From: Brucella cytisi
Lineage (GTDB): Bacteria > Pseudomonadota > Alphaproteobacteria > Rhizobiales > Rhizobiaceae
Reading direction: 5' to 3'
Assembly: GCA_012103075.1 (NCBI GenBank)
Contig: JAAVLQ010000002.1
Location: 1,786,001 to 1,850,000 of the forward strand
Length of the DNA: 64,000 bases
The first letter of the stretch is position 1; every line of letters starts with the position of its first letter. Shown piece by piece: positions 58,533-62,416 of the stretch. A program made the translations under genes and the position numbers. The notes beneath the pieces were generated by a model. The model was not told the origin of the DNA. It worked only from the letters and a program-made list of their open reading frames with translations, and searched no databases.

Positions 58533-61500
58533 TCACTTTCCAAAGGATTGAAACATGTGTTCGACAATTTGATCCCGGCTGTCTTTATCTGGAGCCCCAA
58601 GAACAATTGCAATTGACAACCTTCCGTTTTGCAAGCGGGAGAATATCAGATTATTGATTGTCCTGTTAAGTGAACCCGTTTTCAAACCTGCCGCGCCGTC
58701 GATTTTTGATATGAGACGGTTGGTGTTCCTGTGCTTCTTCCCCTTCCATTCGAAAAATTCTTCCGCGCTCATCGCGACGATTTGAGGGTATTTTTGTGCA
58801 CATAGCGGGCAAGGACAAGGGGCATCCCGCGCAGTCGTTTTCTGGTTGCTGCCTAGCCCGCTTGGAGATGAGAAGATTGTGTTCAACATGCCGATCTGGC
58901 GCGCGTGCTCATTCAGGAGTTGTGTGAATTGCGCGCGATTTCCGCTGTGCCGGGCCGCGAGCACATTACTTGCTTCGTTGGCACTGACGATAATACTGGC
59001 TCTCATCAGGTCGGTGATTGCCACTTGCTCCCCGGGTTCAAAACCCCACCAACTGTTGGTCTCGCGCACGTCTTCTGGAATAGTGAGCAATGTCTTCTGG
59101 TCTATAGCTTGTGCGACAAGACGGTCCATTACCGGGCAAAGTGTCAGCAGCTTCGTTAGAGAGGCCGGCTTTTGCACAAGTTCATCTTCAACCGAAAACA
59201 GGACCTCCTCTCTTTCACAATCGAAGAACAATGCGCTCGTGCCCGGCTTTATGTCTGGTTTTTGTGGGTCTGCTGCAGTTTCTTTCAGCCATGCAACCAG
59301 CTCATGTATTTTCGTGCTATTCGATCCCTTGAATAGGACAGTATCGCCTGCTTTGAGTTCCTTAAGCAAACGGGGTTTCAGCTGTTCGAAATGTTGCGCA
59401 TGCATGGCGCGTTTATCAGGAAGTAGTTTCTCCCAGAAAGGAGCATAAAGAGAACCGACTGCATAGATTTTGTCTATCTGCCGGTCATTGACCTGCTGGG
59501 CAAGACCAATGTGGAAATTCGCTTCATCCGGCCCCAGCTCCGCCATCTGGCCCAGAACCGCGATCCGTCGACCGGTTGCTGGCTCAAGATGGAGGTGCTC
59601 CAGCGCCGCAGACATCGAACCGGGATTGGCATTATAGGCATCATCGATGATCTTGACCGGCTTGCCGTCGAGATGGATTTGCAGATCTTCTCCTCTGCCG
59701 GGGAGCGCCTTGAAACTGTTGAATGTAGCAAGCGCAGGAGAAATATCACATTCGACTGCAGCGACTGCGGCAAGAACAGCGAGGCTGTTCAGTGCCATGT
59801 GCATTCGGGGGGCCTTGAGATGATAGCATAGTTCGCCAAATGGTGTTCTTGCCCGAACCAATCGCCGGTCGGAAGAATAGTCGACCAATGCGTAGTCGGA
59901 GCTCTCCGTGATTCCATAATGTACGATTGTCAAACCCGCGCTTCTTGCTGCCGCATGGACCGTTTCCCATTCAAGCATATCCCGGTTCAGGACGGCGATA
60001 TCCCCCCTGTCTCATGCCTTTGAATATTGCTGACTTTGTCCGGGCAATGTCCCCGATAGTACTATTCTCGCTGAGATGTGCCGGTTGAATGTTGGTAAAC
60101 ACAGCCACTTGGGGTCGCGCCATACGCGTGCTTTGTCCCATCCGTCCGACAGCCATTTCCAGAACAATATAATTTGCTGCTCGATCGAAGGATGCGAGAT
60201 TCGTGCAACTCCATGAGGTAAATTGGCATTGTGTGTACTTTGCTCGACCTTTCCATAGGCACCTAAGGCATGTGACAGCATGGCGACCACAGTCGTTTTT
60301 CCCGCACTGCCTGTCACGCCGATAACCTTGCCTGCGAAGTGATCGCGCGCCATGGCCCCGGGTTAAATAGGGCTCTGTCCGTCGCTTCTACTTCAAAACA
60401 GGGATATCAAGCTTCGCACCGGCCAAAGTACCGATGGGCGCAATAATTGCTGCTGGCGTTTTGGGCAAGGATTTGATCTTTGAAAACGGGATGCCTTTGC
60501 CCTGCGCGTTGCGGAGCAGGACCATTTGCCCTTCCCGGAAGGTGGAAGCATGAATGGAGATGCCTCTCGCGGTCCAATGGTCTGGCGGCTGTGTAACCCA
60601 ATGGCCTTGCGTGGCTCGAACAATTTCACCTGCGTCCCATCCGTTCGTTAACGACGATGAGGGCTTCAGCCTTATCTCTGGCGCTCCCGCCCGAAGAAAC
60701 TTCAAATAGGCTATAAAACCAGAGAGGTAATGTTCCACGTCATCTATACGGATACGGAACGCATGGTGGCGGATAAAGCAACTGCCAACGATCTTGTCGG
60801 GTCTGGCAAAGTACATCGCCATTTCGGGCCAGAAGTAACCGTTGAGCAGGTAACGAGCTCGATGGTGAAGGGCGCTATAAAATTTCTTCAGATCGATGTC
60901 GTTGAGCAAGTGGCGAAGATCGGGGTTACTCCCGATCCTGTGGACCATCTGCTGGGCAGCCATCATCAGCTCAAGCAAGGTCGGAAATGTCGTAATGCGC
61001 TCAAGGACAAAGTCCAGATAAGAAGCGAAATTTCTGATGCCAAACTTGAAGTAACGGATGTCGGGGCGATATCTGGTCAATTCATTGACGCAATAGGCAA
61101 GCCAATGATCGTGCCATTTCCAGTGTTCTGCACGCAAAAATGATCAAATGCCCGTTCGACAGCGTTGAGCCAGCGTTCGTCACCTGTGAGCTCATAAAGT
61201 CGCATCAATCCGAATGCCGCTTCGCCTTCATAATAAATGATGCGGAAATTCGCTTTAACTGCGAGATCCGGATAGGAAAGTACGTGGACAAAGGCACCGG
61301 TCTCGGCATTTTGCATGTGCAATATGCCCATTGCCAGTTGCTCAAGCAAAACATGATAGCAGCTGTCACCCGTCACCGGCTATATTTGGTCAAGGCGAGA
61401 ACAGCCACTGCATTTCCGCCAAGCTTGATTTCGCAATTTTGCTCAACGAGAAAAGCTGCAGTTGCACCACTTTCGAGGGTCACCGTCCTGATGAGCGTAG

Positions 61501-62416
61501 AGGTAAGATAGTGAAGCGCGCGATCGATTGCCTGTCCCAATGCTGGCTCGCGCGTTATCTCCCGTGCTTCGATTAGCGCGTAGGTGCTGCTTGCATGGCG
61601 CAGCGCATTATAGGCAGCTATCTCCCTGTCAAAACAGGGATGATAACCATATATAAAAGCTCCGCTATTGCCCACCTGTCGTGCAAGATGCGCAGAGCTG
61701 GTTTTGGACCAGATGTTCTACATCGTTTGTTGTCAAGGCATCTGTTTTACGTCGTCCGGCATTTCGGCCCGAACTTTCCAGCTGATGGCAATCTTCATTC
61801 CCGTCTATGAAAAATCCATTGGTAGAAAAAAAAAGACTTTATCGTTGTCGCCAAAATCCAGTGAAACACTGTCGCCGTAACGTTTGCGCGCATAAATATT
61901 GAAGTTGTTCTCATTCAGGACTGCATGAGCAATGTTACTTCCCCATAAAGCATGGCGTTGCCATTGAGTTCTTGCTCAAGAAAAGCAATCCGGAGATCAG
62001 AATCGAACGCAATTCCGCATCTGAAGTAATTTCGTTTGGTCTTTTTCAGGAGCAGTCGTAATTCTTTCAGAGTCACGGCTTCAATCTCGTCCGACCACTC
62101 GATCCGCAACCAATTACCCCGAAGCTTCCGACTTCTGATAAGTTCTTGCAATGCAGGAATAATATTCTTCCAAGCCGCCTCGATTGTTACAGCTGTGCTA
62201 TGAATAACAGATGCTCTCGCATCGCCGTCTGAAACAGAAATGAACAAGGTCAGCGGTGTTTTCCGCCATGTCTTGAAAAACGGATTGGTGCGAAGGTATT
62301 TTTCGATTAGCCGGATTTTGCGTGAGAAACCCAATGAGGTCTCATCTGGAAAAGGGACTTTGCCCTCAATTGTCGAAATCCCTGCGGAATTTTTATCGAA
62401 ACATCCATGAGCTCAT
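58533..62416 (-). pseudogene. Helical-barrel / MurF ligase / D-Ala-D-Ala carboxypeptidase fusion (frameshifted)
   Basis: Joining frames gives ~1,290 residues. Part 1 (~1-160; start MSSWMF at 62416 after GGTGGA): unknown domain (TLFISVSDGDARASVIHSTA). Part 2 (~220-600): repeated helices, an (alpha/alpha) toroid-like region (AYNALRHASSTYALIEA, YYEGEAAFGLMRLYELTGDE). Part 3: complete MurF: ATQGHWVTQPPDHWTARGIS, GVTGSAGKTT, FTNIQPAHL, DDAYNANPGSMSAAL and VLFKGSNSTKIHELV. Part 4: DD-carboxypeptidase with SLTK (PASLTKLL), SAN (IVSANEAS) and KTG (GLKTGSLN). No signal peptide. Breaks near 62400, 61920, 61800, 61680, 61375, 61135, 60385 and 60000; the last 1,445 bp are one frame. The biological product is unknown. 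Confidence 0.72.

Follow-up and report, generated by a model that had tools for sequence, protein, structure and literature searches.

In the window analysed here, a stretch of 64,000 nucleotides of the Brucella cytisi contig JAAVLQ010000002.1, a gene in several frame pieces on the minus strand (about 62334 to 58533) encodes four parts in this order: an N-terminal alpha/beta domain (NTD), a helical barrel, a ligase of MurF type and a D-Ala-D-Ala carboxypeptidase of family S11. The fusion represents, at this locus, a widespread and unnamed enzyme family that accompanies repeat-stalk adhesins and whose constant element is a core of about 550 residues made up of NTD and barrel. The product of the operon in which it lies is a giant adhesin that is secreted by a type I secretion system (T1SS) and bears an (Asp-Ala)n tract. 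On balance, the protein is probably a cytoplasmic enzyme that modifies this stalk before export. A dedicated role in tract modification is likely; that the MurF part amidates the Asp side chains is put forward tentatively. The data suggest a dedicated, so far undescribed chemical finishing of sticky surface proteins.

The adhesin operon and its Asp-Ala tract

The family was assembled with a profile of NTD plus barrel (A1), which is the basis of a set of 67 loci in named genomes. A T1SS component was found in the flanking DNA of 39 of these loci, an ABC ATPase in 36, and the common gene order is adhesin, outer-membrane channel, ABC ATPase, HlyD and family gene. Adhesins with a readable start open with a prefix domain of BapA type, then have a hydrophobic segment and continue as a strictly alternating Asp-Ala tract. 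When 16 extra stretches of DNA are taken in, a tract of at least 16 residues is present at 38 of the 67 loci, with lengths ranging from 26 to 1544 residues (median 193). In the window genome, the ABC gene is preceded upstream by an outer-membrane channel and then by the adhesin, which lies just past the right edge (C2:1848000-1867999) and is itself broken, with tract pieces of 376 and 102 residues. The prefix profile matches at C2:1857378-1857734 (E 1.9e-34) and open reading frames (ORFs) for channel, ABC ATPase and HlyD are present, as in BapA/LapA-type T1SS adhesin operons. A preliminary description of this DNA had connected the gene with type I secretion and an exported product, and this link was borne out.

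Across 13 tracts, the most frequent in-frame hexamer accounts for 0.17 to 0.36 of the units and there are 5 to 15 different hexamers, while the alternation is nearly perfect. This mixture of synonymous codons together with near-perfect alternation suggests that selection acts on the peptide. The tract of Sphingobium sp. AP50 (L113), with at least 1544 strictly alternating residues, is among the longest simple alternating tracts in the set, and an adhesin of G013 (L171) displays an alternating Asp-Gly run between two Asp-Ala stretches, a natural repeat variant. Pieces of an AraC-type regulator lie beside the adhesin start of the window genome (L109:10126-11137, plus strand), and a similar AraC-like protein adjoins the prefix adhesin of G022 (L173).

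Co-occurrence of the core and the tract

In the family to which Sphingobium sp. AP50 belongs (249 genomes), the prefix profile matches 19 genomes, and the tract directly follows the prefix in 9 of them and not in the other 10. The core was observed in exactly these 9 genomes and in none of the 240 others (Fisher's test within the 19, p = 1.1e-5). In the same way, 13 of the 35 genomes of the window genus have the prefix, and the core is found in 9 of the 10 with a tract and in none of the 3 without. A sample of the class (385 genomes) adds 7, in which prefix matches are mostly weak and neither a tract nor a full-length core was seen; two other genomes of this sample contain a distant barrel without NTD. 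Pooling the 39 distinct prefix genomes gives a full-length core in 18 of 19 with the tract versus 0 of 20 without (p about 3e-10), a value that, like the former one, is indicative only because the genomes are related and the counts not independent.

In two genomes assembled into 3 and 4 contigs (G018 and G026), the enzyme and its adhesin sit on separate contigs, so that linkage alone cannot account for the pairing. They are also about 70 kb apart on a single contig in G007, a genome of the window genus, and on separate contigs in the drafts G001, G006 and G025, where the assembly may have broken at the repeat itself.

The pairing is seen with Sec/LPXTG proteins as well as with T1SS ones. Two tblastn searches of plasmid records, 54 records each, include Agrobacterium (18), Staphylococcus (15), Enterococcus (6), Acinetobacter (4), Sulfitobacter (3) and Listeria (2). 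Among 11 plasmid-record regions examined, 10 have a D(A/S)-tract protein adjoining the core gene. Tracts of 176 to 1204 residues are located ahead of an LPXTG-type end in five Staphylococcus regions, and the others measure 264 residues in Listeria, 54 in Enterococcus gilvus, 660 in Agrobacterium and 264 in Sulfitobacter, the tenth being a Ser-Asp tract in Klebsiella. A plasmid of Staphylococcus haemolyticus brings together surface protein, core, Mur ligase and serine hydrolase.

Constant and optional parts of the family

Apart from one fragment of 101 residues, the family ORFs measure 551 to 2064 residues. The core stands alone in 17 of 67 (551-609 residues), a MurF P-loop was found by regular expression in 37, and all three S11 motifs are present in L047 and L057, with two of them in L063. 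Other members join the core to a YheC/D ATP-grasp domain plus MurF (P0009, from G018), to a CapA-like domain with one or two MurF parts (P0010, P0011, L073, L096) or to a GT2 domain (L106). MurF, S11, ATP-grasp, CapA and glycosyltransferase are thus optional attachments of a constant core. The CapA part of P0010 also gives a match to MslH, the model of a lasso-peptide Trp epimerase. Two proteins of 2064 and 2072 residues (L033:1133-7327 and L034:9865-16083, both minus strand) combine NTD and barrel with a CapA-like domain and two tandem MurF units.

For the core, neither Pfam nor NCBIfam gives a match above cut-off, and several plasmid records label it 'poly(glycerol-phosphate) alpha-glucosyltransferase'. 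Alignment shows that NTD and barrel are both rich in conserved Arg, Lys and His. The predicted fold includes an (alpha/alpha)6 barrel as in the AGE superfamily, with cellobiose 2-epimerases and GH76 as best fold matches. No signal peptide was seen at the start of intact family proteins, as judged by eye alone.

Such a barrel might act on stalk sugars as an epimerase or glycosidase would, with MurF adding a peptide to a sugar acid or nucleotide precursor. The fold matches and the GT2 fusion agree with this sugar chemistry, as does the glycosylation of Ser-Asp repeats by SdgA and SdgB described in Staphylococcus aureus (PMC8561734). However, a pure Asp-Ala tract devoid of Ser, Thr and Asn provides neither hydroxyl nor amide groups for ordinary glycosylation, a Pfam scan gave no glycosyltransferase match among 56 core members, and a common barrel fold does not fix the substrate; sugar chemistry is quite unlikely.

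Motifs kept and lost in the MurF and S11 parts

When aligned to the genome's own MurF, the proteins of G007 and L047 keep the P-loop, the catalytic Lys (TK-x-x-IF; AK-EIF motif) and YNANP, and that of G007 also keeps KGS. MurF catalytic motifs are likewise kept in P0012, which was also aligned with PDB MurF chains, and the window pieces retain the P-loop, DDAYNANP and KGS. In ordinary MurF, the N-domain motifs SIDSR and DGHDF serve the UDP precursor. Both are replaced in G007, L047 and the window piece, and the PDB chains align to P0012 only from about residue 86. The window genome has a separate murF, whose N-domain motifs are missing from the fused MurF, in line with the earlier suggestion of a substrate other than ordinary peptidoglycan. 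The S11 motifs SxxK, SxN and KTG read SLTK, SAN and KTG in the window, and a Pfam scan of the window pieces detected no ATP-grasp domain. Among staphylococcal MurF-S11 proteins, the L159 copy appears shorter.

The product first imagined for this gene was an exported D-amino-acid peptide or a modified peptidoglycan precursor, as MurF and S11 are both D-Ala-handling families. This part of the preliminary description was not supported: the secreted product of the operon is an (Asp-Ala)n adhesin, the core tracks the Asp-Ala tract and not cell-wall genes, and NTD and barrel are constant whereas MurF and S11 are optional. Such a product is now regarded as very improbable.

An unlikely, if more serious, competitor is a chaperone or pilot, in which NTD and barrel hold the acidic tract export-competent or set its retention with no covalent change, MurF and S11 being binding modules. 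The members consisting of the core alone, the many conserved basic residues and the degenerate look of S11 in two staphylococcal copies would suit it. Against it, the MurF catalytic motifs are kept, as are those of S11 in the window, L047 and L057, the attachments comprise several kinds of enzyme, and partners are not restricted to T1SS proteins.

Proposed modification of the stalk

In the favoured reading, that of a stalk-modifying enzyme, NTD and barrel, with their many conserved basic residues and His, would be the parts that hold and process the acidic repeats. The MurF part would use ATP to attach a short peptide or a single amino acid to the side-chain carboxylates of Asp, the residue common to Asp-Ala and Ser-Asp tracts, in a way similar to the decoration of poly-Asp by cyanophycin synthetase. 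The S11 domain may trim what has been added or bind it, and the completed adhesin would then exit through the T1SS of the operon. A possible but more speculative extension is that bacteria produce a counterpart of cyanophycin that is encoded by a gene. Before export, the Asp side chains of a ribosomally made poly(Asp-Ala) stalk would receive amino acids from Mur-type ligases, or barrel and CapA modules would epimerise its residues or alter them in another way. If true, an acidic disordered tract would become a spacer that is neutral, stiff or hydrophobic, in adhesins of Gram-negative and Gram-positive bacteria alike.

Several points weigh against stalk modification. That the tract is covalently changed is something we infer rather than observe, and the same applies to the site, the ligated group and the role of S11. 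MurF and S11 cannot be a common step, since 17 of the 67 family ORFs are the core alone. In the available flanks, 20 of the 67 loci have neither T1SS nor tract and 9 have a T1SS without tract; at many tract-less loci a contig end or the flank limit truncates the view, yet some, for instance L042, L043, L101-L103 and L107, have complete flanks and still lack them. G012, a genome that is 72% complete, has the tract, and the core was not found in it. The Klebsiella tract is Ser-Asp (1574 residues) instead of Asp-Ala, and the eleventh plasmid region, from Acinetobacter, contains a stretch of only 18 residues. Finally, the MurF model PRK14093 aligns from residue 12 and so covers the N-domain of the G007 protein, and by inspection the S11 motifs appear degenerate in two staphylococcal MurF-S11 fusions (plasmid loci L168 and L169).

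The window locus

Features of the window locus, with their basis
Feature	Positions	Strand	Basis
MurF C-terminal domain and S11 D-Ala-D-Ala carboxypeptidase piece (SLTK, SAN, KTG)	58533..59978	minus	ORF translation, Pfam
Start of MurF middle domain, P-loop GVTGSAGKTT	60012..60353	minus	ORF translation
Last barrel part, then at its end a diverged MurF N-terminal domain	60388..61137	minus	ORF, profile, alignment
(alpha/alpha)6 barrel piece	61077..61376	minus	ORF, profile, alignment
(alpha/alpha)6 barrel piece with GYHPCFDRE	61373..61675	minus	ORF, profile, alignment
NTD piece, KKTKRNYFR motif	61915..62334	minus	ORF, profile, alignment
HlyD-type T1SS adaptor, single frame, next upstream of family gene	62522..63619	minus	ORF, alignment
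C-terminal end of T1SS ABC ATPase, gene runs beyond window (locus L109)	63725..64000	minus	
Alpha/beta hydrolase, 3 pieces, convergent with family gene	57502..58456	plus	

The NTD plus barrel profile matches the window in three pieces in one scan and four in another, and Pfam identified Mur_ligase_C (E 6.8e-17) and Peptidase_S11 (PF00768, E 4.8e-34) in the last frame of the gene. In Aquamicrobium sp. LC103 (L047), the four parts form one uninterrupted ORF of 1331 residues that is collinear with the window across 5 overlapping frame pieces, and the window frames are for this reason taken as one gene. The single polypeptide of this domain order foreseen in the preliminary description therefore exists intact elsewhere. 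It is not the sole arrangement, as separate genes occur in G007, L100 and Staphylococcus; in G007, an intact MurF-S11 ORF of 715 residues accompanies a barrel protein in its own frame of 579 residues.

The broken state of the family gene (five frame pieces), the ABC ATPase (3 pieces in alignment), the hydrolase and the adhesin could also be that of a decaying pseudogene operon in this strain. But the essential murC of the same assembly (G000) is likewise split into 3 pieces and the genome is scored as 85.78% complete and 6.38% contaminated. Given the state of murC and this completeness, the breaks look like assembly indels; HlyD is intact and the active-site motifs remain, which makes decay improbable. 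The frames were not mended and domains were analysed on intact relatives. With breaks in several neighbouring genes, gene content drawn from this assembly needs care.

Relatives of the alpha/beta hydrolase adjoin the family gene in 8 of the 67 loci (cluster 8). Next to the MurF-S11 gene of G007, a related hydrolase is fused to a second S11-type domain (L027:15733-17667, plus strand).

Comparison with known systems

The window protein has in common with MurF its catalytic motifs and domain order, and differs by its replaced N-domain motifs, its extra domains and its gene company. With the AGE superfamily (cellobiose 2-epimerase 5zig) the identity is 13%, the core has an additional NTD, and the gene company points to a protein substrate. 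Cyanophycin synthetase CphA decorates poly-Asp by Mur-ligase and ATP-grasp chemistry on Asp carboxylates and makes its own non-ribosomal polymer. The family member P0009 resembles it in joining YheC/D ATP-grasp and MurF, whereas the Asp tract of the window genome is gene-encoded and the window protein is without ATP-grasp.

Asp-Ala and Ser/Ala-Asp repeat adhesins act in biofilms, and the upkeep of hundreds of strictly alternating units is unexplained; a literature search on repeat adhesins found no paper naming a partner enzyme. A core family that tracks the tracts across phyla makes this question directly testable, offers a reason why genes annotated as 'Mur ligase family' or 'poly(glycerol-phosphate) alpha-glucosyltransferase' adjoin adhesins, and may uncover a new type of protein modification. 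In Listeria, 226 Ala-Asp repeats have been described for Lmo1799 (PMC8687577), and the Listeria locus L163 is presumably that of the Lmo1799 gene.

In Paracoccus denitrificans, BapA contains 891 Asp-Ala repeats, depends on its T1SS and is required for biofilm formation (PMC5588039). The bapABCD operon resembles that of the window in combining T1SS and Asp-Ala-repeat adhesin, although no partner enzyme is mentioned where it is described (PMC5588039). BapA migrates above 300 kDa versus 212 kDa calculated, and post-translational modification could not be excluded by the authors (PMC5588039); both may be counted in favour of tract modification. A parallel is offered by SdgA and SdgB (PMC8561734), dedicated enzymes for an adhesin stalk that is built of dipeptide repeats and has Asp at every second position; these are GT-B glycosyltransferases acting on Ser, whereas the core of the present family shows a barrel fold and no glycosyltransferase match.
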